Source of the DNA: Chloroflexota bacterium
GTDB lineage: Bacteria > Chloroflexota > Anaerolineae > Promineifilales > Promineifilaceae
Length of the DNA stretch: 13,518 bases
Assembly (NCBI GenBank): GCA_008501785.1
Contig: QQUD01000886.1
Coordinates: 1 to 13,518 of the forward strand
Reading direction: 5' to 3'
The notes below the pieces were generated by a model that saw only the letters and a list, made by a program, of their open reading frames with translations, was not told the DNA's origin and did not search any database. Below are positions 1 to 12,890 of the stretch, piece by piece. Position 1 is the first letter of the stretch. Each line of letters begins with the position of its first letter. The position numbers and the translations under genes are program-made.

Positions 1-2395
1 TGAGTTGGCCGATGATTACGGCCGTTTCCCCCCCCATCACCACCACATCCACATCCCCTTCCGCACCCGGCGGCACAACCAACCTGCGATGCTCCAGCAC
101 CACCTCACCGGGCTGCCACAAATGCGGTGGATACCGGCCCAAAACCGGCATATCTACCTGCGGTGACAACGATATATCCCCTTGAACCAAATCGAGAGCC
201 AATGGCATCTGCAACGGGATGTCAGATGCCTGCCACTGCAACTGGACAAACACAGATTGACCAGGAGCGACATTATTCCGATCTACTGTTGCTGCTTGCA
301 ACAACAGACCATCACCCATCTGCACAAAACCCTGATCTTGCAACACATTGGATGGATTGACGCTCAGGGCAAGCAAGTCATAAGGATTTGAGTTAACCCC
401 AATTTCTTGAATCAAAGATGTCTCTGCTGCTGTAAACCGCTGCCCAGCTTGATTGGAAAGGTCCAGCGTGCGTGGGCCTGCCCCCAAGTTTTGCTGAAAC
501 ACGGAGACACTAACTTGATAATCAAGCGGCGGGATGCCTTCTGGCAATGGAATGATGTGATACGTTGTGGTGGTGGCACCAACCGGCCAAAATGAAGGTG
601 GACGGCCGTTTTCATCCACAATCTCCTCATCTTTCCACGCCAATGACCAGCCTCCCACGTCTTGAAGTTGCAGCGAAACACCCAGCGGGTCAGGCGTAAG
701 GGCGTCTAATCGCCAACGGAGGGCGACCGTAACGGCCGTATCCGCCGCCGCCCCTTCTTCTACCCACACATCAGTTAGAGCTAACGATTCAAATTGAGCC
801 ACAACCGGCGTAAGATTCACAGGCGCAACCGGCTCATGCAATTGAAAACGGCGCACTCTCATATCATCAATCGACTCGACAATTTCTAAATAACCAGCAC
901 GTTCAAGCACAAACGGCACCACGTTTTGCCAATCGTGCGCCCCGCGTTTGTATTCAAGCACGAAGATTTGACGGGGAACGGCCGTTATCTCTGCCAAATG
1001 TTCCCACATCGATTCCCGCTGCTTCGTTCCTGGCATCTCAATGGCGGCATCCCCATCATATTCAAACGCTAGCGACCAATCCTCGTCTGGCACCAAAATC
1101 AAATCACCAGCTCCAGCTTCAGCTTCTAAATAAGCCGCAACACCACGGATATCATCTTTTGCCACACTTTGATCAAAAAAATAATCTTCGAGAGAGAAAT
1201 AAGAAAGAGCCAAGACACAGCCAATCAGCCCCACAGCCAGCACATTATAGACAAACCAACGCCAACTCGACAGCCGCACGCCACCCACCACAAAATAGGC
1301 GACCAATGGAAACACGCCCACCGCATAAATGGAAATGTAGCGCGGATGGGAAAAGGAACGCACGCTCCAAATAAAAAACGAGAAGGCCAACGGCAGTAAC
1401 CAAACCAACAACAAACGATAATAGTGGCTGCGCGAAGTTGTTTTCACCAAATGCCATATCATCAATCCAACAAAAGCTGCTGCCGTCAACAATGCCAAAA
1501 TCCGCACGTTATCTCGCGCCAACGAACCAGCCAATCCGGTGAAATGAAAGGTCCAAATTTGCTGCACGAGATAATCGAACGGGGCCGGCTCAGTCAAAAA
1601 GCGCCCCGTATCGACCCGCTTGCGCACGGCAATAAAATTAAACAAAACGGATACAAACCAAGGGAGACTAGCCAGCACGACAACTGCCTGGGTCATCAAC
1701 CAGCGCCACCATAACATCTTGTTCCGCTGATAAATGTGCCACAATAACCAAACATTGACAATAGCCACCAGCAAAAAAGTGATGTAATGTAAATGCACGC
1801 CTACCCATTCGGACACGCCCAATACAACCCACCAACGCCAATATAGATCCGGAGTGGGGGCTTTAGCCGGGTCGTGCAACCCATTCCGGCTAAAGCCTCC
1901 ACTCCGGTCAGAATGTGCAAATTTATTGCCGATTTTTGTAGCAGCTAACAGCATCGTCAGATAAACGAGCGGCAGCAGTGCATAAACGCGAGTTTCTTGT
2001 CCATATATAATAGAAAGCGGCGAAAGTGTAATCAGCAGCGTGGTCAACCCGATAATCCATTTGCCCTGAGGGAGTTTGGCAAACCAATAGCGGCAGGTGA
2101 TGTAAACGGCCGTTACCTGCACCCAACTTGCCAACACCGACAAATAGCGTCCCGTAAACGCAGACACCCCAACCAGTGACAGCCAACCCTTGAGCAAAAT
2201 AAAATACCCCGGCGGGTGCAGCCGCTGCGCCCTATCTGCCCAAATCTCACCCACCGAAGAGGTTGCCAAATGCAAACTAATCCCCTCATCCCACCAAAGG
2301 CTCTGCGCATCTAACCGAAAGACACGCACCGCAAACGCTATCAACAAAATGATTATCAGCATCGGTGTACGAAATTTGGCAAAATCCTTGCTCAA
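1..2395 (-). CDS. GT-C fold (family 39/PMT-like) membrane glycosyltransferase, 3' end cut by window
   Basis: The minus strand stays open from about 2419 to the window edge without a stop, so the C-terminus is missing; about 800 residues are visible. Counting from the ATG at 2419, an Asp-Glu pair after the first membrane helix (D44-E45 in LWWDEG) matches the catalytic acidic motif of lipid-linked-sugar GT-C enzymes. HPPGYF (68-73) and YGQETRVYAL (139-148) are also typical. About ten hydrophobic helices fill residues 20-430. A soluble beta-rich region follows (about 540 onward) resembling the tail of the upstream neighbour. Role inferred: transfer of a sugar from a polyprenyl-phosphate donor on the outer face of the membrane; donor and acceptor are unknown. 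I prefer the TTG at 2395 as start because GAGG (2407-2404) lies 8 nt before it, the same spacing as in two other genes here. The ATG at 2419 has no Shine-Dalgarno and touches a hairpin. Residues 171-190 come from an inserted palindromic repeat. The gene probably forms an operon with the upstream glycosyltransferase. Confidence 0.85.
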   Translation of the reverse strand, partial: MSKDFAKFRTPMLIIILLIAFAVRVFRLDAQSLWWDEGISLHLATSSVGEIWADRAQRLHPPGYFILLKGWLSLVGVSAFTGRYLSVLASWVQVTAVYITCRYWFAKLPQGKWIIGLTTLLITLSPLSIIYGQETRVYALLPLVYLTMLLAATKIGNKFAHSDRSGGFSRNGLHDPAKAPTPDLYWRWWVVLGVSEWVGVHLHYITFLLVAIVNVWLLWHIYQRNKMLWWRWLMTQAVVVLASLPWFVSVLFNFIAVRKRVDTGRFLTEPAPFDYLVQQIWTFHFTGLAGSLARDNVRILALLTAAAFVGLMIWHLVKTTSRSHYYRLLLVWLLPLAFSFFIWSVRSFSHPRYISIYAVGVFPLVAYFVVGGVRLSSWRWFVYNVLAVGLIGCVLALSYFSLEDYFFDQSVAKDDIRGVAAYLEAEAGAGDLILVPDEDWSLAFEYDGDAAIEMPGTKQRESMWEHLAEITAVPRQIFVLEYKRGAHDWQNVVPFVLERAGYLEIVESIDDMRVRRFQLHEPVAPVNLTPVVAQFESLALTDVWVEEGAAADTAVTVALRWRLDALTPDPLGVSLQLQDVGGWSLAWKDEEIVDENGRPPSFWPVGATTTTYHIIPLPEGIPPLDYQVSVSVFQQNLGAGPRTLDLSNQAGQRFTAAETSLIQEIGVNSNPYDLLALSVNPSNVLQDQGFVQMGDGLLLQAATVDRNNVAPGQSVFVQLQWQASDIPLQMPLALDLVQGDISLSPQVDMPVLGRYPPHLWQPGEVVLEHRRLVVPPGAEGDVDVVVMGGETAVIIGQL
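1849..1907 (-). repeat. 59-bp inverted repeat inserted in-frame in the glycosyltransferase gene
   Basis: Two 22-nt arms (1849-1870 and 1886-1907) are reverse complements with a single mismatch, separated by a 15-nt spacer. Each arm contains the smaller near-palindrome GGCTTTAGCC or its complement. The reading frame runs straight through, adding about 20 residues (SGGFSRNGLHDPAKAPTP) to a loop between two membrane helices. The residues are hydrophilic and unlike the flanking helices. The shape resembles translated palindromic elements (Rickettsia RPE type) or REP-like repeats; that assignment is inference. Confidence 0.8.
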
Positions 2396-2403
2396 AGCAA
2401 TTT

Positions 2404-2407
2404 CCTC
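2404..2407 (-). promoter_or_regulatory. Ribosome binding site GAGG supporting a TTG start
   Basis: On the minus strand AGAGGA lies 8 nt before TTG at 2395-2393. It sits inside the reading frame that would begin at the ATG at 2419. The same motif and spacing precede the S1 gene (TTG) and clpC (GTG), which argues that TTG is the real start. Confidence 0.5.
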
Positions 2408-2419
2408 TAAAATTTCCAT

Positions 2420-2458
2420 CGGACAGAAATAACATCGGTTTTTTGTTATTTCCGTCCG
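2420..2458 (-). promoter_or_regulatory. Strong hairpin between the two glycosyltransferase genes
   Basis: GGACAGAAATAAC (2421-2433) pairs with GTTATTTCCGTCC (2445-2457), with one G-T wobble on the minus-strand RNA, plus an outer C-G pair at 2420/2458. The loop is 11 nt. The hairpin starts 9 bases after the stop of the upstream gene and ends flush against the ATG at 2419. No U-run follows it on the minus strand, so it does not look like a standard intrinsic terminator. It may stabilise or separate the two coding parts of one mRNA, or control initiation of the second gene. Confidence 0.65.
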
Positions 2459-2467
2459 GTGGGAAAT

Positions 2468-5383
2468 CTATTCATTCACATCTATTGAAAATGGAAGGCT
2501 GATTTGGTCAGCCTGTATGTTTGCACCATCAGAATCAGTAATTGGGAAGCGTATACCTGAATCGGCCGTATACATGCCCACCACCACCTGATACTCTCCA
2601 GCAGGTGCATCTTCCGGCAGCACAATCACATATTCATCCACAATCACCTGACCAGCCACCCACAAATCAGTCGGTAATCCACCCGGCCAGCGATCATCCT
2701 GGGCCACAATCTGACCATCTGGCCCCACCAAATGCACAAATGCATTGTAAAGGACAGGCGGTTGCTGCAAAACTTGCCAGGTAAGCGTCACAGCCACATC
2801 CTCGCCAACAGATGCTTGCGTAGTTGCATCCACACCTAATAGTTGAACATCGTCACCAAATTGATAATTTAGCGACGTTTCAATGTCATTTGGCAGCGTA
2901 AAAAGGCGCTCCAGCGGGTTGACCGAAATGGTTCCTAAAACGGCCGTTTCCCCCACCCTATCTCCATTTTCATCCAGCAGCATCACCAGCACCGGGTACA
3001 CACCTTCCGCTAAATCAACAGGCACTGGCAGCAAATATTTTTCATGTACCAGTTCACCCGCTCGCCATGACTGCACAGGCCAGCGGCTTAACGGCCGTTT
3101 CACCACCACATCCCCAATTTGCAAACCTACCTGCCAGTCAGTTTCCGTCGGTTCCGATAACTGCCAATACAAATCAATCGGCAAATCTGTGCCGGTCACA
3201 ACCGACTCCCAGAGCGAATCGTACCCCAGCAGGCGTAGTCCAGCAGTGTCCCAAATAGCATCAATAGAATTGTCAATGGCGACCCGTGAAGCACTGATAA
3301 CAGATTCCAGCGGTTCCAATTTCAGTTCAGCCACCTGATAACTGATACCGGCAAAACGGCCGTTTTCTGTCAGTACCGGTAGTTGTGCCCCAGATTCCGT
3401 GTTAATCAACTCAACGTCAAGCTGATAAGTCGCTGGCGGCAACGCCAATGGCAAGGACAACCGATAATTAACCAAAGGCGTTTTGTCTGTCTGCCAATGT
3501 TCTGGATAAAAATAGGTATCGTTCAGCAAGGGTGTTTCCATGCTCGTCCAAATTTGGTCACATTCATCTGAGAGTGTGAATTTGACAGTGTAACGGCCGT
3601 TTTCACCTCCCTGCAGCAAATCCCAGACAGCCACAATCCGTACTTGCTCTTCGCCCACTTCCGCCGCAGCGCCCAACAGCTGCACTTGATTATCATACAC
3701 AACAGGCTCGGAGAGGGGTTCTGGAGAAATTGGTTGATCGGGAAACGGCCGTTCATACACCCACGCCTGTTCTAAACCACCATACTGAATGGTATACAAC
3801 AATTTTGCATTTTCTGTTCTTGCATCAAATTGAGCTTCATTCCCCTGGCGGCTCCCTGCCGAAACAACAAGGATGTCCGCCTGCCCCCAGGTGTCTGCTT
3901 CAAATAAAAAGGTATTTGGATAAAAAGGAGCAAAGGATGGGGCGGTTGGGGAAACGGCCGTTTTCCCCATATATTCCGGCTGATCAGCCAGCCATCGACC
4001 AGCCGCGCTCACACCCTCTCCCCACCCAATGGGCATCACAGACTCGGCAACGGCTGGACCACCCACCAACCAATTGTATGCCGACAAAGGGTAAAGAAGG
4101 TAGAAAAGCAAGTAAACAACCTGCAAAGCCACAGGAATCAACACCCCGAATTGAATTCCACGCCATTTTCTGACAAGCATGCGACTCCAGATAATTGTCG
4201 CAAATAGAGTCATGGCTGGGAAAACTGGCAGCACATATCTATCAAACTTCTTCGTCGCAATCGAAATACCTACAATAAAAAGAGTAGTCCAAACCAACAG
4301 CAAACCAATTACCCAGCCATCATATTGGCTCAAATCAGATGATCGTCGATTCTGCGAACCCCTTCGATTACGAATAATAAGCCAAAATGAAAGAAAGATG
4401 CCTGAAAATACAGTTGGACTCAAACGAAAAGCAAGCGCAATTGGATAAAAAATCGGGCCGTGATCAAAATCCACCTTCCCCAAAAAGAAGGTTGGTCGAA
4501 GCGCTTCAGCGATATGCCTACTGGCATTATTGTTCATCAGGTCCAAAACTTGAATCGGGGATAGCCACAATGCAGGAAAAAGCAAAAACAGTACGAGACA
4601 AAATGCAGTTAGCCATGCTGCTCCTTGCCATAAAAGCCATCGCATTCCTTCAACGGAACGATAACGACGCCACCAAATGATCAACATAAAACTGGCAGTC
4701 AATGGAGGTAACAATATAGCCGGGGATTTAGTTAACAGGGCCAGAGCGGCCATTGTGCCGGAAACGGCCGTATACCCCACCCGTTTTCTATTAGGCAAAT
4801 CAACCAACAAACCAACCAACAAACTAAGTAAGGAGAGCGTTGCAAACGTCGTCAAAAGAGCATCAACATGCAACAAACCTGACAAGCCAGCTAGAAACGG
4901 GTCAAACGCCAATAAGAGGGCAGCCGAAACAGCAACCGTATTGTTAAACAATTTGCGTGTCAACAGGAAAACAGCCGTTAGTCCCACACTATTCACCAGG
5001 GCCACAGCAACTCTTCCTGCAGATAAGAACATTGACAACTGGCGTAACGCCTGCATGTTTTCCGGGGCAAACCAGACAAGCTGGGTCAGCCAGGTATACA
5101 CGTCCGTGCTTGCAGGGTGCAAAATCATTTGCAGCGAAATTGCCGCAGCACCCAGCCAGGTCGTTATCACACCAGGATGCCCAGCAGTCAACGTACCCAA
5201 CCACTCTCCAGAGAGCAGCGCCTCTCGAAATTGGATAGAGCGGTATACCCAGATCAGTTCGTCGGGGGTGATGTACCGGGATACGGCCGTTAACCGCAGC
5301 AAAAAAGATAACAAAAAAACAAGCAAAGCTAGCTTATTGAAAGACCATTTATTTACAGAGAAATTTGACAACAATGATGCCAT
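2468..5383 (-). CDS. GT-C fold (family 39-like) membrane glycosyltransferase with beta-sandwich tail
   Basis: A complete 971-residue protein. A hydrophobic helix at about 17-35 is followed by ITPDELIWVY with the acidic pair D41-E42, the position of the catalytic Asp in PMT/ArnT-like enzymes. AGHPGVITTWLG (67-78) resembles the HPP loop, and HVDALLT (172-178) and KKFDRYVLPVFP (378-389) are further family hallmarks. Roughly ten to twelve membrane helices cover residues 17-435. The remainder is soluble and contains related beta-rich segments marked by VQLLG, LRLLG and VQLLG; the last holds WPGGLPTDLW. These are probably outer-surface carbohydrate-binding or packing modules (inference). The enzyme likely moves a sugar from a polyprenyl-phosphate carrier to an outer-surface acceptor. 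The next gene downstream is a paralogue of the same architecture. The ATG has no Shine-Dalgarno; a TATGAT box at 5397-5392 just upstream would give a very short or absent leader. Eight copies of ACGGCCGT lie in this gene. Confidence 0.9.
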   Translation of the reverse strand: MASLLSNFSVNKWSFNKLALLVFLLSFLLRLTAVSRYITPDELIWVYRSIQFREALLSGEWLGTLTAGHPGVITTWLGAAAISLQMILHPASTDVYTWLTQLVWFAPENMQALRQLSMFLSAGRVAVALVNSVGLTAVFLLTRKLFNNTVAVSAALLLAFDPFLAGLSGLLHVDALLTTFATLSLLSLLVGLLVDLPNRKRVGYTAVSGTMAALALLTKSPAILLPPLTASFMLIIWWRRYRSVEGMRWLLWQGAAWLTAFCLVLFLLFPALWLSPIQVLDLMNNNASRHIAEALRPTFFLGKVDFDHGPIFYPIALAFRLSPTVFSGIFLSFWLIIRNRRGSQNRRSSDLSQYDGWVIGLLLVWTTLFIVGISIATKKFDRYVLPVFPAMTLFATIIWSRMLVRKWRGIQFGVLIPVALQVVYLLFYLLYPLSAYNWLVGGPAVAESVMPIGWGEGVSAAGRWLADQPEYMGKTAVSPTAPSFAPFYPNTFLFEADTWGQADILVVSAGSRQGNEAQFDARTENAKLLYTIQYGGLEQAWVYERPFPDQPISPEPLSEPVVYDNQVQLLGAAAEVGEEQVRIVAVWDLLQGGENGRYTVKFTLSDECDQIWTSMETPLLNDTYFYPEHWQTDKTPLVNYRLSLPLALPPATYQLDVELINTESGAQLPVLTENGRFAGISYQVAELKLEPLESVISASRVAIDNSIDAIWDTAGLRLLGYDSLWESVVTGTDLPIDLYWQLSEPTETDWQVGLQIGDVVVKRPLSRWPVQSWRAGELVHEKYLLPVPVDLAEGVYPVLVMLLDENGDRVGETAVLGTISVNPLERLFTLPNDIETSLNYQFGDDVQLLGVDATTQASVGEDVAVTLTWQVLQQPPVLYNAFVHLVGPDGQIVAQDDRWPGGLPTDLWVAGQVIVDEYVIVLPEDAPAGEYQVVVGMYTADSGIRFPITDSDGANIQADQISLPFSIDVNE
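3948..3968. repeat. Longest palindrome built on the ACGGCCGT core
   Basis: GGGGAAA, CGGCCG and TTTTCCCC follow each other here, an almost perfect 21-bp palindrome with one extra T. Other copies keep only one outer arm, for example CGTTTCCCC at 23-31 and 2946-2954, and GGGGAACG at 973-980. This suggests that the full ancestral unit was about 20 bp. It lies inside the glycosyltransferase gene, where it reads as KTAVSPT. Confidence 0.75.
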
Positions 5384-5391
5384 AGCGGCTA

Positions 5392-5397
5392 ATCATA
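5392..5397 (-). promoter_or_regulatory. Possible -10 box for the glycosyltransferase operon
   Basis: TATGAT on the minus strand lies 8 nt before the ATG at 5383, which would place transcription start at or next to the start codon. That fits the missing Shine-Dalgarno. No convincing -35 box is seen at the right distance, so the call is weak. Confidence 0.3.
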
Positions 5398-5453
5398 ACC
5401 TAACGAAACTTGAAAAACTACCACTTCTGCTTGCCGTTTGCACGACAAATTAC

Positions 5454-5463
5454 TTCATATGAA
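5454..5463. promoter_or_regulatory. TTCATATGAA palindrome in the divergent intergenic region
   Basis: A perfect 10-bp palindrome between the divergent glycosyltransferase and S1 genes, about 26 bp upstream of the -35 box of the S1 promoter. It could be an operator half-pair, but short AT-rich palindromes arise by chance. Confidence 0.25.
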
Positions 5464-5488
5464 CTTTATTAACAGGAAGAATGTTATA

Positions 5489-5516
5489 TTGCCAACACCT
5501 TCAAACCCAGTATAAT
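5489..5516 (+). promoter_or_regulatory. Sigma70-type promoter of the S1 gene
   Basis: TTGCCA (5489-5494) and a perfect TATAAT (5511-5516) are separated by 16 nt. Transcription would start near 5523, leaving a leader of about 36 nt before the TTG at 5559. The ATG at 5481 lies upstream of this promoter and so would not be in the transcript. Confidence 0.7.
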
Positions 5517-5544
5517 CGTGAAAACGCTCGCATTTGTCGACAAA

Positions 5545-5550
5545 GAGAGG
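5545..5550 (+). promoter_or_regulatory. Ribosome binding site GAGAGG deciding the TTG start of the S1 gene
   Basis: Located 8 nt before TTG at 5559. The upstream in-frame ATG at 5481 has no comparable site and lies 5' of the promoter. Confidence 0.7.
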
Positions 5551-5558
5551 AAGACGAT

Positions 5559-6725
5559 TTGATAAAAGAAGCAGCAGAATCGAGCAATAGTGAAGCTGTT
5601 CATCCAATGGCATTCCTATTGGCCGAGGAACTTGATCTCCCTTCAGTGGGTGAAACACGTGAAGGTTGGGTGGTTGAGCACCGCAATAATGAAATACTCG
5701 TAGATATTGGCGCAAAGTCAGAAGGTGTTATTCCTGCACAAGAATTGCAAGAAATCGACCCGGCCATTAGAGAGCAAATGACAGTTGGCAGTCAGGTTAT
5801 TGTCTACGTCGTTAATCTTGAAGACCAACATGGCAACGTCATTGTTTCGTACACAATGGCGGCCGCTGAACGTGATTGGGTCATTGCCGAAGAACTAGCA
5901 AAATCCCAAGAAATTCACGAAGGTGAAGTAGTTGGTCAAAATCGCGGAGGATTGCTTGTAAAATTAGGTTTATTACGCGGTTTTGTCCCTAATTCCCAAT
6001 TAAGCAGGGAACGTAAATTTGGCAGTGGCACAAATCCAGAGGCATTAGCTAAGCTCATTGGAACGAAAATTTCCGTTAAAGTATTAGAAGTTGATGCCAA
6101 ACGGAATCGTTTAATTTTATCCGAAAAAGCTGCTACTCAATCAAGGCGTAAAGAAAAACGCGCAGAGCTTTTAAAAACATTACAAGAAGGTGATGAATAT
6201 GAAGGGCGCGTTATAAATCTAGCCGATTTTGGTGCATTTATAGATATTGGTGGTATAGAAGGTTTAGTCCATTTATCAGAATTAAGCTGGAAACGGATTA
6301 ACAAACCTGGTGATATACTTAAAGTAGGCGATCTGGTAAAGGTTCGAGTCTTAAACATCGACCGAGACCGAGAACGTCTGGCTTTGTCCATGAAACAGTT
6401 AGAGCCCGATCCGTGGACAATGATTGAAGATACTTATCAAGTCGGGCAATTATTGGAAGCAACAGTTACCAAAATTACGAAATATGGCGCATTTGCCCGT
6501 TTACACGATGATTACGGACTAGAAGGGTTAATCCATATTTCGGAACTTTCAGAAGAGCATATTGCACACCCAAGTGAAGTCATTGAGCCTTCACAAACGG
6601 TAACTGTACGTATCATTCGTATAGATCCGAAGCAACGACAGCTTGGTTTAAGTATCAAGCAAGTTTCTTCAGATAAATATGTGGAGGCTGATTTAGCGTT
6701 AATAACGGCCGTTCAAGGTTCATAA
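5559..6725 (+). CDS. rpsA: S1-domain ribosomal protein (bS1-like, four S1 repeats)
   Basis: The protein binds single-stranded RNA and, as part of or in contact with the 30S subunit, helps recruit mRNA. Its 388 residues hold four OB-fold S1 repeats at about 31-101, 118-190, 210-279 and 296-369. Repeats 3 and 4 are the most canonical (VINLADFGAFIDIGGIEGLV, ITKYGAFARLHDDYGLEGLI); repeats 1 and 2 are more diverged. Four repeats is the usual form in several Gram-positive-like phyla, against six in Escherichia coli. I chose TTG at 5559 because GAGAGG (5545-5550) lies 8 nt ahead and a promoter sits between this codon and the in-frame ATG at 5481. Starting there would add 26 residues poor in S1 character. 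clpC follows after 55 bp with no terminator seen, so the two are probably co-transcribed. One ACGGCCGT copy falls in the last codons. A general S1-domain RNA-binding protein other than bS1 remains possible. Confidence 0.88.
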   Translation: MIKEAAESSNSEAVHPMAFLLAEELDLPSVGETREGWVVEHRNNEILVDIGAKSEGVIPAQELQEIDPAIREQMTVGSQVIVYVVNLEDQHGNVIVSYTMAAAERDWVIAEELAKSQEIHEGEVVGQNRGGLLVKLGLLRGFVPNSQLSRERKFGSGTNPEALAKLIGTKISVKVLEVDAKRNRLILSEKAATQSRRKEKRAELLKTLQEGDEYEGRVINLADFGAFIDIGGIEGLVHLSELSWKRINKPGDILKVGDLVKVRVLNIDRDRERLALSMKQLEPDPWTMIEDTYQVGQLLEATVTKITKYGAFARLHDDYGLEGLIHISELSEEHIAHPSEVIEPSQTVTVRIIRIDPKQRQLGLSIKQVSSDKYVEADLALITAVQGS

Positions 6726-6767
6726 TCGCAACCTGGCAATCAGTCAACAGCCTTCACCAGTACAACC

Positions 6768-6772
6768 GAGGT
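6768..6772 (+). promoter_or_regulatory. Ribosome binding site GAGGT of clpC
   Basis: Located 8 nt before the GTG at 6781. It decides in favour of this GTG, from which the protein begins directly with the ClpC N-terminal domain. Confidence 0.7.
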
Positions 6773-6780
6773 AATAGCCG

Positions 6781-9291
6781 GTGAATTCAAAAAATTGGGA
6801 ACGCTTTACACAACGCGCTCGTCGCGTACTCAGTTTAGCTCAAGAAGAAGCTGAACGACTCAATCATAACTATATCGGCAGTGAACATGTTTTAATCGGG
6901 TTGCTACGTGAAGAAGGTGGTGTCGCTGGCCGTGTGCTGCGTGAACTCGGACTGGATGTCGCGCGCGTGCAGGCCATGGTAGAACGCCTTTCAGGTGGAC
7001 CAGGTACACGAACCCCTTTCACAAAAATCGAACTTTCGCCTAGCACAAAGCGTGTTTTAGAGCTGGCTGTTGAAGAAGCTCGCCGCATGGGGCAACATTA
7101 CATCAGCACCGAACATCTGTTATTAGGTATGGCTCGTCAAAATGAAGGTCTTGCCATTGATGTGCTGCGCAAATTCGGCATCAGTTCTGAACAGATTCGT
7201 CGTCAAACACGCCGCATGTTGAAAGAAAGCCCGGTTAGTTCATCAGAAAGCCGGACAACACCTCAACGCCCAGCTCGCAAAGAAAAAAGCAAAACACCCA
7301 TGGTCGATCAATTAGCAACTGACCTGACGGCTATGGCAGAAGAAAACAAGCTGGACCCAGTCATTGGCCGCAACATGGAAATTGAGCGGGTCATTCAAAT
7401 TTTGGCACGCCGTACCAAGAACAATCCAGCCTTGATTGGTGAACCAGGTGTGGGCAAAACAGCCATTATTGAAGGACTGGCACAGCGCATCATAAACGGC
7501 CGTGTTCCAGAAATCCTACATGGCAAACGCGTCCTCCAACTCGATGTTGGCAGTTTGGTTGCTGGTACGATGTACCGTGGTCAGTTTGAAGAACGTCTCA
7601 AGCGTGTCATCGAAGAGTTAAAATCAAGTGACTCGATCCTTTTCATTGACGAAGTTCACATGCTTGTTGGTGCAGGTTCTGCTGGCAGTTCAGTAGATGC
7701 AGCCAACATCTTAAAACCCGCTCTAGCTCGTGGCGAACTACAAACCATTGGCGCGACGACACTTGAAGAATATCGCAAGTATATTGAAAGTGATGCAGCC
7801 TTAGAACGTCGCTTTCAGCCAATTCATGTTGATGAACCGACTCCCGAAGAGACACTTCAAATCCTGCGCGGCATCAAAGGCGCGTATGAACAACACCACA
7901 ACCTCTTTATTACAGAGGAAGCGATTGAAGCGGCCGTTACGCTTTCTACACGCTACGTCACAGATCGGTTCTTGCCAGACAAAGCAATTGACCTCATCGA
8001 CGAAAGTGGTTCGCGGGTACGCATGTACCGCGCACCACAACCAGCTGACATTCGGGAAGCTTACGATTCGCTGCGTGAACTGCGTGAAGAACGCACACAG
8101 GCCCTTGAGTCTGGCGCACATGAACAGGCCGATGAGATTCGTTTACGCGAAGAAGAATTGCAACGCCGTTTAGATCAGCTGCGTGTCGGTGAAAGTGAAA
8201 GCGAATCCAATATCTCTGTTACTGCAGAAGATATTGCCGAAGTACTTTCAATGTGGACCGGCATTCCTGTCTACCAATTTACCCAAGAAGAGTCAGAACG
8301 ACTTCTGCAAATGGAATCGGCTCTAGCTGAACACATTGTTGGACAAAAAGAGGCGATTGAAGCCATCTCCAAGGCAGTACGTCGCGCCCGTGCCGGTCTT
8401 AAAGACCCGAAACGGCCGATTGGTTCCTTTATCTTCTTAGGACCTACAGGCGTTGGTAAAACAGAGTTAACCAAAGCATTAGCTCAATTCCTGTTTGGCA
8501 GCGACGAAGCCCTGGTTCAGCTTGATATGTCTGAATTCATGGAGCGTCACAGTGTGGCACGGCTGGTTGGTTCACCTCCAGGCTACGTTGGCTATGAAGA
8601 CGCTGGGCAGCTAACAGAAGCTGTACGCCGTCGCCCTTACTCCATCGTCGTTTTTGATGAAATTGAAAAAGCGCACCCTGAAGCTTTCAATATCCTGTTA
8701 CAAATTATGGAAGAAGGTCATCTGTCTGATGCAAAAGGCCAGAAAGTCAACTTCCAAAATGCGATTATCATCTTAACCTCAAATGTTGGGGCTGATACAA
8801 TTCGCCGTGGACCTAATTTAGGGTTTGCCTTCCAACGGGATTCAAAAACTGAAGGGGAAGCAAGTTACGCAGAAATGCGAAAAACATTGATGGATGAACT
8901 GAAGCGTCAGTTCCGCCCAGAGTTTATCAATCGCGTAGACAGTATCATCGTCTTCCGGCAATTGTCTGAAGAAGATATTCGTGAAATTGTTGACATCATT
9001 TTGCGTGAAGTCAATGAGCGACTGTCTGAACATGAACTCGGTATTTCAGCAACAGAACCTGCTAAAGATTGGTTAGGCAAGCATGGGTACGACGCCGAAT
9101 TTGGTGCACGTCCGCTGCGTCGCCTCATTCAAACTGAAGTTGAGGATCGTCTTTCTGATGCAGTGCTTTCTGGCAAGTTTACAAGCGGACAAACAGTTAT
9201 TGTTGATGTTGATGAAGAGGATACCATCGTTTTGCATAGTGAAGACACTTCTGAAGATGCAGTTGAAGAGGAAGCATTGCCTGCGTCCTAA
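6781..9291 (+). CDS. clpC: ATP-dependent Clp protease ATP-binding subunit ClpC
   Basis: A cytoplasmic AAA+ unfoldase that threads substrates into the ClpP peptidase. In order along 836 residues: the Clp N-domain with two repeats (about 1-150; [12 protein letters not shown] and [11 protein letters not shown]); first ATPase domain with Walker A GEPGVGKT (220-227) and Walker B FIDE (288-291); a middle region with a UVR-like coiled segment (about 430-470) typical of ClpC; second ATPase domain with Walker A GPTGVGKT (554-561) and Walker B VFDE (624-627); the LGF loop (680-682) that docks on ClpP; and a C-terminal D2-small domain ending near 815 in an acidic tail. All key residues are present, so it should be active. 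The length is normal for the family. Start is GTG with a good ribosome binding site. It follows the S1 gene without a terminator and ends in an intrinsic terminator. No ctsR, mcsA or mcsB lies beside it, unlike in Firmicutes. ClpB is excluded because the middle region is short. Confidence 0.96.
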
Positions 9292-9314
9292 CTGTTTCTT
9301 GTCATTCATATATC

Positions 9315-9341
9315 AAAAAGCCCGCTTGATGCGGGCTTTTT
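9315..9341. terminator. Intrinsic terminator, probably bidirectional
   Basis: AAAAAGCCCGC (9315-9325) and GCGGGCTTTTT (9331-9341) form an 11-bp stem with the loop TTGAT, followed by more T residues on the plus strand. The opposite strand also ends in a T-run (complement of the A-run at 9315-9319). It lies 24 bp after the clpC stop and 39 bp beyond the stop of the convergent LysM gene, so it can end both transcripts. Confidence 0.9.
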
Positions 9342-9379
9342 TTATTTCAATAAATCAGTTTATCGTGGTTGTTGTTTGC

Positions 9380-9877
9380 CTATGGATATGCTTCTGAGTC
9401 TGAGTCTGAGTCTGAGTCTGAAGATGAGGATGAGGATGAAGATGAAGAATTATCCGTAGAAAGATTAAGGTTGCCTATACTTAATACATCTTTATCAGGA
9501 CAATCAGGAATATAAATCCAATCCCCTGCATAAATTAAATCGAAATTGTAGTGACGGTTTGCATCTGAGATTGCATCAACAGTTGTGTTATATTGAACTG
9601 CAAGTTCAGAAAGTGTGTCACCGGGTTGAATCACATGTATTAAGCGCTCTGTTGCTGCAAAAATATGTTCGGGGGTGACTAAAGGCACTGGCGTAGATGT
9701 GGCAGGTAATGTGGTGGCAGTGGGAGGAACTGGGGTGTCTTCAATACGAGGTGTATCTTCCACAGCTTCAACTTGTTGCGCACCAGATGTTTCAGCACCA
9801 GTATCTTCAGACTCCCCGCCATTTCGACAAGCAACACCTACCAGTAATAACAATACAATTAACAATAATCTTCGCAT
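9380..9877 (-). CDS. LysM-domain lipoprotein with Ser/Asp-rich tail
   Basis: A 165-residue secreted protein, probably lipid-anchored. MRR plus a run of Leu/Ile/Val residues ends in GVAC (Cys 17), a signal peptide with a lipobox that is weak at -3 (Gly). A Glu/Thr/Pro-rich linker of about 65 residues follows. The LysM domain then runs from IHVIQPGDTLSELA to AGDWIYIPD (about 80-125), a fold that binds N-acetylglucosamine-containing glycans such as peptidoglycan. The tail contains a serine run followed by Ser-Asp repeats, encoded by a short tandem DNA repeat. I chose ATG at 9877 because GGAGG (9886-9882) stands just before it; an upstream TTG at 9892 would bury that site. There is no catalytic domain, so it is likely a binding or scaffold protein. 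It is divergent from the kinase gene and shares its control region, which hints at linked expression but does not prove it. Confidence 0.85.
   Translation of the reverse strand: MRRLLLIVLLLLVGVACRNGGESEDTGAETSGAQQVEAVEDTPRIEDTPVPPTATTLPATSTPVPLVTPEHIFAATERLIHVIQPGDTLSELAVQYNTTVDAISDANRHYNFDLIYAGDWIYIPDCPDKDVLSIGNLNLSTDNSSSSSSSSSSDSDSDSDSEAYP
9393..9449. repeat. Hexanucleotide microsatellite encoding the Ser-Asp tail
   Basis: TCTGAG is repeated four and two-thirds times at 9393-9420, followed by a degenerate run of GATGAG/GATGAA triplet pairs to 9449. The six-base unit keeps the frame, so slippage would change tail length without breaking the protein. Confidence 0.85.
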
Positions 9878-9998
9878 AAGGCCTCCACACAAAAATATTC
9901 TTGATTAAAGCCTAAACCAGTTTTTTAGAATAATAAATAAAGCCTTTAACAAACGACTTGAAACCGAATCAGGCAGGTTTTGGTAAATAGACATAAAC

Positions 9999-10027
9999 AT
10001 TATAGCAAAAGAAACGGCTTTTTTGAA
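9999..10027 (-). promoter_or_regulatory. Likely promoter of the LysM lipoprotein gene
   Basis: On the minus strand, TATAAT (10004-9999) is preceded by TGC, an extended -10. A weak -35, TTCAAA (10027-10022), lies 17 nt upstream. Transcription would start near 9992, giving a leader of about 115 nt. Confidence 0.5.
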
Positions 10028-10037
10028 GCAGTGGTAT

Positions 10038-10097
10038 CAATCGGAAGTCATATGCCTATTTTTCAAACGCACAAAAATAGGAATAAAGTCCCGATTG
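10038..10097. repeat. 60-bp two-part inverted repeat between divergent genes
   Basis: CAATCGG (10038-10044) pairs with CCGATTG (10091-10097), and CCTATTTTT (10055-10063) pairs with AAAAATAGG (10073-10081) around a 9-nt loop. A 10x9-nt internal loop separates the two stems. Neither strand has the T-run of a terminator. It lies just upstream of the likely LysM promoter and about 150 bp before the kinase start, so it could be an operator for a dimeric or tetrameric regulator, or a structured leader RNA. Confidence 0.65.
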
Positions 10098-10250
10098 CGT
10101 TCATATTAACCCAGGTCTTAAGATAGGTGAAAGAGAATTGCAATGAATATTAGTCTATCGTCACAACTAACAATTTATAAAATTTGTTGTAGGGATAGCT
10201 ATTGAAAAACTACTTATGAATAAAGAGAGATTTAGCATTACACAGATTAT

Positions 10251-12890
10251 ATGATCCCAAAAACAATAGGCCGCTACCGCATTAAGTCGGAGTTAGGTCG
10301 CGGGGGTATGTCTACGGTATACCTGGCTCACGATCTACACTTTGAACGGGATGTGGCCGTAAAATTACTGCCCTTGGAGTTGTTACACCAACCCACTTTT
10401 CGCCGGCGTTTTGAACGTGAAGCAAAAGTAGTTGCAGCTTTGGATCACCCCGCTATTGTGCCAGTCTACGATTTTGGAGAAGAAAGAGAACAGCCATTTT
10501 TGGTGATGCGATTTATGCCTGGCGGTTCTTTATCGGACCGCTTGAAGCAAGGGGCACTTTCCATTAAAGAAACAGCCAACATCATGAGTCGACTGGCACC
10601 TGCTTTAGATGAAGTGCATGCGCATGGCATTATTCACCGTGATTTAAAACCAAGCAATATTTTGTTTGATCAACGGCGCGATCCCTATATTTCTGATTTT
10701 GGTACAGCAAAACTGACACAAGCCCAAACGAAGTTGACAGATACGGGTGGGGCGGTTGGCACGCCAGCTTATATGAGTCCCGAACAGATTCAAGGGGACG
10801 CGGAACTGGACGGCCGTTCTGATATTTATTCACTTGGCATTATTTTGTTTGAAATGCTAACGGGACAACATCCGTACCAAACGAACACGCCGCTTGCTGT
10901 TGCCGTGAAGCATATTTTTGAACCAATTCCTTATATTCTGGATATGGTTCCTAATTTGCCTACTGAAAGCCAAGAAATTATTATGCAGGCAATGGCCAAA
11001 GATCGGACGCAGCGATATGTAACGGCCGTTGCCTTTGCTGCAGATTTAGCCCGTGTTGCCGACAAGATCGAAACTCGTATGTTACAAGCGCTTGCGAATC
11101 AGGAGGATCAACCCCAACCGGGTCGTTATGCCTTGTTGATAAAAAACAATGAATTTAATGATCCATTGCTTTCCCAATTAACTAAAAACGCATCAAATAT
11201 TGATGATTTGGGCGAGCTTCTGAAAAATCCAGCCATTGGTGCATTTGATGAAATAACCACGCTCCAAAATGAGCCATCCCACGTTATTCGCCGTGCCATT
11301 TCGCAATTTTTTACGGACAGGCAGCCTGATGATTTACTGCTCGTCTATTACACTGGACACGCCGCGATTGGGTCTCGCAGCCGCCTTTACCTGGCGGCAA
11401 ATAACACCGAACATAATTTACTGCGTGGTACGGCTATTCCAGCCGGCTTTATTGCAGATGAGATGGATAACAGTCAATCAACCCATCAGATACTCATTCT
11501 TGACTGCCATTTTAGTAATGCTATTGAAACGGATTTACCGAGTTTAGTGGGTCAAACGGTTAATTCTGGTGCGACTTTTGCGCGTAATGGACATGACCGG
11601 GTCGTTATTACGGCAACGGATAGTACACAATATAACTGGTTTAAAGATGAGGTTCGTGGAAAAGCCACCCCATCTCAATTTACCAAACACCTTATTCATG
11701 GATTACGCAGCGGTGCAGCTGACATTAATCAAGATGGTGATATTACAATTAATGAGCTTTTTGCTTATATATTTGATTGCGTGTCCCGAAATTCGGTTGA
11801 TGAGCACATTCAGATACCTCGGAAATGGACACCTCATTCGGTAAAGGATGGAGATGGGTTGGTAATTGGTTTTGCAAACGGGCAAGTAGCGAACAAAACG
11901 GCCGTTTCCAAACGCCACCCCGCCATCTCACAAGTCAAACAAACCAGATCGAGATTTTCCTTTTTAAACAAGCTGTCAAAATCAACGATTCATGTTTCTG
12001 CGATCACAATTTTGCTGTTGGCAATCGGTTTGTTATTTGTGACGGGTGGCAGTCGCACGAGTTTCAATAACAACGAACAAACTGCGGCAGCAGCAAATAT
12101 CATCCCATCACCAACGATGCCGCCAACGGCTGTTTCACCAACAAACACACCCGCAAGCACATCAACTGTTGAAAACAACAATGCTGCAAATAGCGAACCA
12201 TCCCCTGTGGCTGCAACTGAAACGAAGACTGTAGCGGAAACGGCCGTTATCACCCCATCTCCAAGCAAAACGAGTGAACCCACCAACAGCCCAACAAAAA
12301 CAACACCTGAAGCAACGGCAGCCGTAAACGAGACCATCACCACAATTGCACGGCTCTCATCTAGCCTATTTATTTCTCCAGATTCCGATTCACAAGAGGT
12401 AACATTTGTGGGAGCGGGAGAGCAAGTTGAAATTATAGGGCGCTCTAAATTTGGCGAATGGCTTTATGTACTTACTGAAGACCAAAATGAAGGCTACGTG
12501 TATGGACCTCGATTTGATTATGAAGGAGACTACAATTCATTACAAATAGTCCAAACATCTCCACCAAACAATAGCAGCACTCCACCTGCTGAGGAATCCT
12601 GTTCAGGCAATTGCCCCACCTTGAAACTCGACCTGTACGATCTGCCAAGCCCACGCTGCACAGAAGATAACAAATTCCGCACCATTTACATCCAGGGTCG
12701 AGGGGGCAACGACACCTTTACTTACTATTGGGATGGAGAATTCAAAGCTGGACCAACCTCTGATGGGTTTGGCTTTGATGTCAGCAGTGCCAACGGTTCT
12801 GCTGTAATTGGACGCGGCAAAGTTGTTTCAGGTGATGGACAAGTAGTAGAAAAAGAGCTGTTTGTCTCAAACTTTAGCTGCAATAACTGA
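10251..12890 (+). CDS. Transmembrane Ser/Thr protein kinase fused to a caspase-like (C14) domain and outer SH3-like domain
   Basis: An 879-residue protein. The Hanks-type kinase (about 8-270) has glycine loop GRGGMS (16-21), K38, E57, HRDLKPSN (129-136), DFG (149-151) and SPE (176-178), so it should be active. A caspase-like p20/p10 region (about 292-540) follows: YALLI start, YYTGH with His370, and LDCHFSN (417-423), where the usual catalytic Cys of DxCxSG is replaced by His420, leaving Cys419 one place early. An EF-hand loop lies at 491-502 (DINQDGDITINE). One membrane helix (about 581-598) is followed by a Thr/Pro/Ser-rich linker (about 610-695), an SH3-like domain (about 697-757) and a C-terminal beta-rich domain with four Cys (784, 788, 803, 877). 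Kinase and caspase-like domain are thus cytoplasmic, and the SH3 part outside may bind the cell wall. The combination suggests a receptor that turns an envelope signal into phosphorylation. Whether the caspase part is a protease or a pseudo-enzyme scaffold is open. ATG has no Shine-Dalgarno. Confidence 0.93.
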   Translation: MIPKTIGRYRIKSELGRGGMSTVYLAHDLHFERDVAVKLLPLELLHQPTFRRRFEREAKVVAALDHPAIVPVYDFGEEREQPFLVMRFMPGGSLSDRLKQGALSIKETANIMSRLAPALDEVHAHGIIHRDLKPSNILFDQRRDPYISDFGTAKLTQAQTKLTDTGGAVGTPAYMSPEQIQGDAELDGRSDIYSLGIILFEMLTGQHPYQTNTPLAVAVKHIFEPIPYILDMVPNLPTESQEIIMQAMAKDRTQRYVTAVAFAADLARVADKIETRMLQALANQEDQPQPGRYALLIKNNEFNDPLLSQLTKNASNIDDLGELLKNPAIGAFDEITTLQNEPSHVIRRAISQFFTDRQPDDLLLVYYTGHAAIGSRSRLYLAANNTEHNLLRGTAIPAGFIADEMDNSQSTHQILILDCHFSNAIETDLPSLVGQTVNSGATFARNGHDRVVITATDSTQYNWFKDEVRGKATPSQFTKHLIHGLRSGAADINQDGDITINELFAYIFDCVSRNSVDEHIQIPRKWTPHSVKDGDGLVIGFANGQVANKTAVSKRHPAISQVKQTRSRFSFLNKLSKSTIHVSAITILLLAIGLLFVTGGSRTSFNNNEQTAAAANIIPSPTMPPTAVSPTNTPASTSTVENNNAANSEPSPVAATETKTVAETAVITPSPSKTSEPTNSPTKTTPEATAAVNETITTIARLSSSLFISPDSDSQEVTFVGAGEQVEIIGRSKFGEWLYVLTEDQNEGYVYGPRFDYEGDYNSLQIVQTSPPNNSSTPPAEESCSGNCPTLKLDLYDLPSPRCTEDNKFRTIYIQGRGGNDTFTYYWDGEFKAGPTSDGFGFDVSSANGSAVIGRGKVVSGDGQVVEKELFVSNFSCNN

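Follow-up and report, generated by a model that had tools for sequence, protein, structure and literature searches.

Why should a single palindromic octamer, ACGGCCGT, recur 19 times in 13,518 bases of a Chloroflexota genome (contig QQUD01000886.1; this whole stretch is called the window below), when 200 dinucleotide shuffles give a mean of 0.15 copies and never more than 2? A reading from the sequence alone had put the chance expectation at about 0.2 and had drawn a parallel with HIP1, the highly iterated palindrome (HIP) of cyanobacteria. Our results bear out both points: the excess is real, and the word is HIP1-like and genome-wide in relatives. The ACGGCCGT system works like a HIP and has the sequence features by which HIPs are recognized. 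It acts at the level of DNA, as is evident from its presence in all three reading frames, its noncoding copies, the excess of the tripeptide Thr-Ala-Val (TAV) and its conservation above its surroundings. We suggest that ACGGCCGT might be kept by selection on DNA as the recognition site of a lineage-specific, trans-acting factor that processes the chromosome, a proposal to which we would give an even chance of being right.

Abundance and conservation at the DNA level

Thirteen of the copies in the window crowd into two glycosyltransferase-like genes (5.4 kb), four lie in a kinase gene, and one each is found in clpC and at the end of the S1 gene; for all but the kinase gene, the sequence-only reading had described this distribution. 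It was also right that most copies are read as TAV (12 of 19, with x-Gly-Arg in 5 and x-Arg-Pro in 2). The copies are as follows.

18..25, no strand: ACGGCCGT in glycosyltransferase-like gene A, TAV frame
602..609, no strand: ACGGCCGT in gene A, NGR frame
732..739, no strand: ACGGCCGT in gene A, TAV frame
978..985, no strand: ACGGCCGT in gene A, TAV frame
2106..2113, no strand: ACGGCCGT in gene A, TAV frame
2940..2947, no strand: ACGGCCGT in glycosyltransferase gene B (PMT_2), TAV frame
3091..3098, no strand: ACGGCCGT in gene B, KRPL frame
3356..3363, no strand: ACGGCCGT in gene B, NGR frame
3593..3600, no strand: ACGGCCGT in gene B, NGR frame
3745..3752, no strand: ACGGCCGT in gene B, ERPF frame
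3954..3961, no strand: ACGGCCGT in gene B, TAV frame
4764..4771, no strand: ACGGCCGT in gene B, TAV frame
5283..5290, no strand: ACGGCCGT in gene B, TAV frame
6705..6712, no strand: ACGGCCGT at the S1 gene end, TAV frame
7496..7503, no strand: ACGGCCGT in clpC, NGR frame
10810..10817, no strand: ACGGCCGT in the Ser/Thr kinase gene, DGRS frame
11022..11029, no strand: ACGGCCGT in the kinase gene, TAV frame
11898..11905, no strand: ACGGCCGT in the kinase gene, TAV frame
12240..12247, no strand: ACGGCCGT in the kinase gene, TAV frame

The further claim that copies are confined to coding sequence did not hold. Long open reading frames (ORFs) contain all 19, but because the counted ORFs span 12,840 of the 13,518 bases (95%), an outcome that simple arithmetic from this coverage gives a probability of about 38%, the window offers no evidence of such confinement, and larger samples contain copies outside ORF calls. 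Gene calls throughout are long ORFs rather than gene-finder output, and many of the analyzed stretches are short contigs. On this basis, the 845 ACGGCCGT sites in 28 loci and the window (468 kb) occur at 1.89 per kb within ORF calls and 0.90 per kb outside, with 1.94 and 1.49 per kb in genomes G026-G028 (860 kb) and 1.91 and 2.56 per kb in phage pieces. The 813 framed sites in the 28 loci and the window divide into 447 TAV, 228 xGR and 138 xRP. No tripeptide is more common there than TAV (463 observed, 66 expected), and ACGGCCGTN encodes 447 of these 463, whereas codon usage would lead one to expect 68. A signal at the level of DNA is able to alter the amino-acid make-up of numerous proteins.

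Copies are also retained as the surrounding sequence diverges. We counted sites in both directions, so that a shared site contributes two counts, and used as controls octamers with six G/C and a CG. Between L007 and L009 (93.2% identity) 58 of 59 sites were kept, compared with a fraction of 0.565 for control octamers; the corresponding values were 30 of 31 and 0.393 for L002 and L003 (89.0%), and 64 of 83 and 0.244 for L001 and L005 (82.1%). Further aligned pairs kept 34 of 53 sites at 76.6% identity (control 0.146) and 20 of 42 at 73.7% (0.102), and the window shared 6 of 9, 6 of 10 and 6 of 9 sites with L001, L002 and L005, respectively (controls 0.05-0.08). On a log scale, control octamers are lost about thirty times as readily as ACGGCCGT in the closest pairs, and about three times as readily in distant ones. 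Synonymous positions behave likewise: between L001 and L005, four-fold positions of ACG codons were unchanged in 30 of 31 cases within the motif and 80 of 161 elsewhere, and those of GCC codons in 28 of 31 and 306 of 448, although four-fold conservation in distant pairs rests on small samples. Biased repair that only creates copies predicts a neutral rate of loss; since losses are rarer, selection on existing copies or their protection is needed, and we infer that selection, rather than protective repair, may be responsible.

The conserved unit is short. In close host pairs (178 sites, 145 shared), the eight core bases have identities of 0.92-0.98 over a baseline of 0.863, and identity in the folded flanks from 1 to 20 nt is 0.80-0.89. 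For distant host pairs, which supplied 154 sites (60 shared) with a baseline of 0.746, identity across the inner six positions is 0.73-0.84. The left and right flanks of ACGGCCGT in hosts show no pair correlation beyond composition, and a slight excess of such correlation occurs at the first flanking base in phages and in the T/A dialect, both of which are considered below. The outer arms that the sequence-only reading had noticed around many copies are present as composition, in the form of a strand skew. Its idea of a spread element of about 20 bp, taken as a mobile or copied unit, is rejected, because the extra conservation in close host pairs is confined to 8 bp and the flanks are uncorrelated beyond composition.

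Range, dialects and phage carriage

To gauge how widely ACGGCCGT is used, we surveyed 56 genomes of the order of genome G007, a group of uncultured bacteria that we take to be Promineifilales, and called a genome HIP-rich if it had at least 1,500 copies. Thirty of the 56 are HIP-rich, with maxima in G027 (15,176 copies in 7.5 Mb), G026 (15,031) and G028 (14,867); the reversed-letter control occurs 4-459 times in the same 30 genomes. Twenty-seven of these have about 990-2,100 copies per Mb and the other three, G016, G031 and G051, have 420-515, and in 303 kb the word is 48-fold over expectation. Outside the order, none of the 397 Chloroflexota genomes sampled exceeds 471 copies (a 400-genome sample of the phylum, three of them from the order). 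Among 80 relative loci, ACGGCCGT is the top palindrome in 18 (L001-L011, L013-L018 and L020; 9 to 51 copies), and its spacing, followed on three contigs, shows a clear 3-nt codon period. Of the checks suggested with the sequence-only reading, the genome-wide counts in relatives came out in its favor, far above the Markov expectation, and the comparison of aligned positions showed that sites are lost less often than control octamers.

Some relatives use other words with the same core. One dialect, TCGGCCGA, has 9,414 copies in G030 and 7,668 in G041; another, GCGGCCGC, occurs 148 times where 4.2 are expected in 101 kb of G020 and replaces ACGGCCGT at locus L022 (36 vs 1.1 expected); and a relaxed CGGCCG with any ends is found in G031, G051 and G052-G053. 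Words of the other dialects are scarce in G020 (ACGGCCGT 0 vs 2.2 expected, TCGGCCGA 0 vs 2.2, CCGGCCGG 1 vs 5.8) and in G041 (ACGGCCGT 0 vs 2.4, GCGGCCGC 0 vs 5.0, CCGGCCGG 2 vs 4.0). Among one-letter deviations in 303 kb, the end deviations ACGGCCGA (66 vs 19.8, 3.3-fold) and ACGGCCGC (60 vs 34.2, 1.8-fold) are over-represented, CCGGCCGT (21 vs 33.7, 0.6-fold) is not, and internal deviations range from 0.06 to 1.27-fold. A different palindrome, TGCCGGCA, is iterated in G037 (L158, L179, L203, L231, L321), with 3,665 copies in 4.0 Mb, a count that came from the reversed control of ACGGCCGT, and 21 vs 0.8 expected in 20.6 kb.

In a comEC tree of 49 genomes (a single gene, midpoint-rooted), one clade holds nearly all users of CGGCCG words, and within it G050, which uses ACGGCCGT, falls in one subclade together with the T/A, G/C and relaxed forms; the exceptions are HIP-rich G016 outside the clade and HIP-poor G038 inside it. 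At aligned positions, one of five L022 sites, always the same one, stands opposite ACGGCCGT in 10 of 17 HIP loci and the other four never do. Several comEC columns pair ACGGCCGT with CCGGCCGG or GCGGCCGC in some genomes, and none of the columns common to at least three genomes pairs it with the TCGGCCGA of G030 or G041. Some sites thus swap their ends in place, and others turn over.

Mobile elements carry the word as well. IMG/VR was scanned for two ACGGCCGT copies within 34 nt; the records were thus picked for the motif and their densities are biased upward. Among the matches listed, nine records with phage hallmark genes have ACGGCCGT at 1.1-3.5 per kb: G455 (terminase, portal, head protease, tape measure), G461 (terminase, portal, head protease), G456 (tape measure), G458 (terminase, portal, tape measure, endolysin), G459, G462 and G468 (portal), and G465 and G467 (terminase), G462 and G468 being identical where aligned. 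Whole-record counts for 17 of the matches listed include 93 in 40.4 kb (G455), 85 in 33.5 kb (G456), 227 in 65.5 kb (G458), 106 in 46.2 kb (G465) and 57 in 30.7 kb (G461); two of the 17 are chance-like (G470, 6 in 221 kb; G471, 11 in 86 kb). Directed sites kept in phage pairs number 50 of 62 where identity is 78.2% (control 0.223) and 38 of 45 where it is 78.6% (0.205). To judge by the motif, these phages appear to infect HIP-rich bacteria. A scan of IMG/VR for TCGGCCGA gave, among the matches listed, one pair per record and no dense record.

Two of the records have further features. G457 (100 kb; L383, L442) is plasmid- or conjugative-like (ParA, FtsK, SLT, anti-repressor) and contains 226 copies of ACGGCCGT. 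In phage record G458 (L490, 1927-4661), a gene for a PAPS-reductase-like protein lies beside a SNF2-type helicase gene; its assignment as DndC was rejected, as the protein scores far below the DndC cut-off.

Strand skew and competing explanations

Chromosomal copies have, on each strand, a G-rich 5' side and a C-rich 3' side, extending about 50 nt per side. At four-fold sites of G026-G028 (1,493 ORF sites), the C-G skew at 5-10 nt is -0.56 upstream and +0.54 downstream, declining to about 0.1 by 46-70 nt; it recurs in L001-L020, in noncoding bases (+0.32 at 5-10 nt) and in the window (downstream on each strand, 0.74 at 3-4 nt, 0.45 at 5-10 and 0.36 at 11-20), with A and T roughly balanced around copies. 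The T/A and G/C dialects have it too, and it is strong only at the genome's own octamer: one-off and off-dialect octamers reach at most +0.07 at 5-10 nt, and control palindromes show it weakly or not at all. Ten phage and plasmid-like records have a preference in the nearest 1-4 nt, then -0.03 to +0.08 at 5-10 nt, with +0.14 at 11-20 nt in G467.

We also compared flanks 5-20 nt from directed sites with homologous flanks that have no site. In host group B, the skew was +0.343 at shared sites, +0.177 at sites present in one genome and +0.011 in site-less flanks (60 and 57 sites; 13 of the latter excluded); in host group A, it was +0.264, +0.222 and +0.149 (250 and 70; 6 excluded); and in phages, +0.046, +0.127 and +0.164 (106 and 20; 1 excluded). 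The skew thus accompanies the site, cleanly in host group B only, one of the three groups.

These observations could be explained if a lineage-specific factor, acting in trans, recognized the core CGGCCG, with an outer base pair that would change between lineages. Its action on the chromosome would leave the strand-asymmetric imprint, G-rich before and C-rich after the site over about 50 nt per side, and resident phages might have adopted the same word and profit from matching it. That a single factor reads the word, and that it acts in this way, is what we infer. As for its role, our first guess, though less likely than not when taken by itself, is a Chi-like mark of self DNA in recombination or repair, mostly with an enzyme other than AddAB or RecBCD; a modification system is our second. 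Being a palindrome, a Chi-like word of this kind would be readable from either side. The fullest version, in which a large clade within the order uses ACGGCCGT and its dialects as a palindromic signal of self DNA, read by a chromosome-processing enzyme whose strand-asymmetric imprint marks thousands of sites, mimicked by phages and plasmid-like elements and remodelling the proteome, is tentative, and we would sooner bet against it than for it.

Several points weigh against a factor that processes the chromosome at ACGGCCGT. The scatter of the sites, of which there are about 2 per kb, is nearly random and mildly clustered (variance/mean 1.1-1.7 per 5 kb), and they have no consistent helical period, a weak 11-nt signal (2.45) being confined to one of three contigs (0.57 and 1.09 in the others); regular or helical spacing is thus rejected. 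Off-dialect octamers are not depleted in G030 (ACGGCCGT 3 vs 1.8 expected, GCGGCCGC 5 vs 4.2), and the octamer's two outermost bases are no better conserved than baseline in distant host pairs (0.72 and 0.70). Flanks without a site are still skewed in host group A and, in phages, are no less skewed than flanks with one; since the long skew is almost missing from phages, their sites must be kept by something that can do without the imprint. Four-fold divergence is not raised beside sites in hosts, so there is no sign of mutagenic breakage, and the skew might come from mutation bias, repair bias or weak selection. Hypermutation beside sites, which an initial comparison had seemed to indicate (0.083 substitutions within 40 nt of sites vs 0.055), is accordingly rejected, and the excess is put down to constraint. 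In addition, PF12705 in frames of 900 aa or more, the size of AddA or AddB, is found in 4 of 30 HIP-rich genomes (G007, G014, G015, G031) and 6 of 26 others, a distribution that argues against canonical Chi, and none of the enzyme families tested could be identified as the factor reading ACGGCCGT.

In phage pairs of G455, G456 and G461, four-fold divergence is 0.23 at 3-10 nt from shared sites and 0.35-0.41 beyond 70 nt. This lower divergence, not seen in hosts, may reflect mosaic segments.

The strongest rival, which we regard as somewhat improbable, is Elhai's model for HIP1, in which an orphan cytosine methyltransferase specific for CGGCCG or GGCC steers biased mismatch repair and the octamer itself has no function. 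The architecture is that of HIP1 and its alternates, a fixed hexamer core with a variable outer pair; two of the three end deviations are the best tolerated; methyltransferase genes are common in these genomes; and repair that protected existing copies would also lower loss rates. A drive that only gains copies, by contrast, is at odds with the rarity of losses, and the G-meC rule that Elhai gives for HIP1 (PMC4390886) needs an outer G and C, leaving the A/T and T/A outer pairs unexplained.

The distribution of candidate enzymes does not favor this model either. Searches for PF00145 and PF01555 covered 22 genomes among the 56 plus G023, which lies outside the order: PF00145 occurs in 8 of 16 HIP-rich and 1 of 7 other genomes, full-length PF01555 in 12 of 16 and 4 of 7, and neither in G001, G006 and G016, three of the 16 HIP-rich genomes searched; because the genomes are incomplete, such absence is weak evidence. 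A D12 enzyme (E below 1e-40), presumably Dam-like, fails to discriminate (26 of 30 HIP-rich, 11 of 26 others), as does a DUF1156-like one (26 of 30, 17 of 26), and both were rejected as the HIP enzyme for their presence in many HIP-poor genomes. The most regular orphan, a YhdJ-like methyltransferase, is commoner in HIP-rich genomes, though its distribution is patchy (13 of 30, and 2 of 26 others with one broken fragment counted), and was rejected as well; in NCBIfam it comes closest, below cut-off, to adenine enzymes, and its PDB matches mix adenine, cytosine-N4 and unspecified enzymes. Thus none of the tested families tracks ACGGCCGT, and the solitary methyltransferase that the sequence-only reading had proposed to look for did not emerge, no methyltransferase family tested being present in all HIP-rich genomes searched. 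The YhdJ-like gene (L116, L132 and orthologues; 14 genomes with long matches and the fragment) lies downstream of a DsbA-like thioredoxin gene in the two loci inspected.

Alternatively, a very abundant, sequence-specific nucleoid protein might bind the sites, with phages imitating the host chromosome. The near-random scatter over the contigs tested and the occurrence of sites in coding DNA, noncoding DNA and phages would suit such a protein; however, evolution in close pairs has left a footprint of no more than 8 bp and nucleoid marking alone does not explain the strand skew, and we consider it unlikely. Still less probable is a DNA uptake sequence by which kin DNA would be recognized in natural transformation, its dialects paralleling those of Neisseria. 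Density and dialects resemble those of uptake sequences and ComEC is present in 28 of 30 HIP-rich genomes, but it is present in 22 of 26 others too, the word is palindromic, and phage records carry and conserve it at host-like density, which uptake does not predict. Finally, codon usage for frequent Thr-Ala-Val peptides, which the sequence-only reading had named as an outcome that would refute its idea, has virtually no chance of being correct: although TAV is the frame of 447 of the 813 framed sites, ACGGCCGTN far exceeds its expectation among TAV codons, the other two frames hold 366 sites, noncoding copies exist and four-fold sites are conserved.

Besides the genes named above, the window encodes a LysM protein and an O-antigen-ligase-like protein. 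The two glycosyltransferase-like proteins are membrane proteins; gene A is truncated by the window end, and gene B matches PMT_2. Relatives of the S1 protein place the window in Anaerolineae, Chloroflexota. A long inverted repeat in gene A (1849-1908; CCGGAGTGG...CCACTCCGG, with GGCTTTAGCCGG-like arms) was spotted by eye, and the LysM protein (9380-9892) has a C-terminal serine run followed by Ser-Asp repeats.

Relation to known systems

HIP1 (GCGATCGC) and alternate HIPs have been described in cyanobacteria (Elhai 2015, PMC4390886). The available text of that paper contains neither 'chloroflex' nor 'cggccg', and the literature we searched, as titles and abstract openings with subscription papers mostly outside, holds no report of a HIP system in Chloroflexota. 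Like HIP1, ACGGCCGT is a GC-rich palindromic octamer found hundreds to thousands of times per Mb and scattered through genes, with a hexamer core, a variable outer pair and two well-tolerated end deviations. It is far above Markov expectation genome-wide, within the 300-2700 per Mb that characterize HIPs; relatives have alternate octamers (TCGGCCGA, GCGGCCGC, relaxed CGGCCG, and TGCCGGCA in G037); and one-letter deviations concentrate at the first or last base, though CCGGCCGT is below expectation. It is not HIP1 proper, since its core is CGGCCG and the named relatives belong to a different phylum, Chloroflexota. No core-specific methyltransferase was found throughout the HIP-rich genomes searched, and, unlike HIP1, ACGGCCGT is dense in phage records. 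At the 225 HIP1 copies on the cyanobacterial replicon Kovacikia pA, the skew, which spans about 50 nt at ACGGCCGT, almost vanishes (+0.16 at 3-4 nt, +0.09 at 5-10, +0.03 at 11-20); values from two smaller sets of HIP1, with 26 and 24 sites, are too noisy to judge and scatter from -0.05 to +0.18 between 5 and 20 nt. Low HIP1 has served as one sign of foreign islands in Synechococcus elongatus (PMC3025956). On a Calothrix sp. NIES-4105 plasmid (L639), we observed an alternate cyanobacterial HIP, AGGCGCCT, 37 times where 0.6 are expected in 50 kb.

Chi is an over-represented short word recognized in DNA processing by RecBCD or AddAB, with biased base composition nearby in Escherichia coli. ACGGCCGT is likewise short and over-represented and has biased composition nearby, but it is palindromic and denser than Chi in E. 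coli. As to RecBCD, AddAB or AdnAB, PF12705 was the sole domain searched, and 26 of 30 HIP-rich genomes lack a match of AddA or AddB size. The uptake sequences of Neisseria and Pasteurellaceae occur about once per kb, have dialects between relatives, and are oriented and scarce in phages. ACGGCCGT resembles them in density and dialects, and competence machinery is present in the form of ComEC, though no more tied to HIP-rich genomes than noted above; it differs in being a palindrome that is common and conserved in phage records. Targets of restriction-modification would be avoided in phages, whereas these sites are enriched and conserved in the motif-selected phage records.

In the literature found, HIPs are reported from cyanobacteria only, and their function is still debated. 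A second system in another phylum, with dialects on a tree, phage carriage and a measurable chromosomal imprint, helps to separate explanations that one system could not. The Chloroflexota system rejects codon usage and a gain-only mutational drive, weakens uptake and restriction, and offers handles toward the putative factor in the gene content co-varying with dialect, the strand skew and the phage sites.

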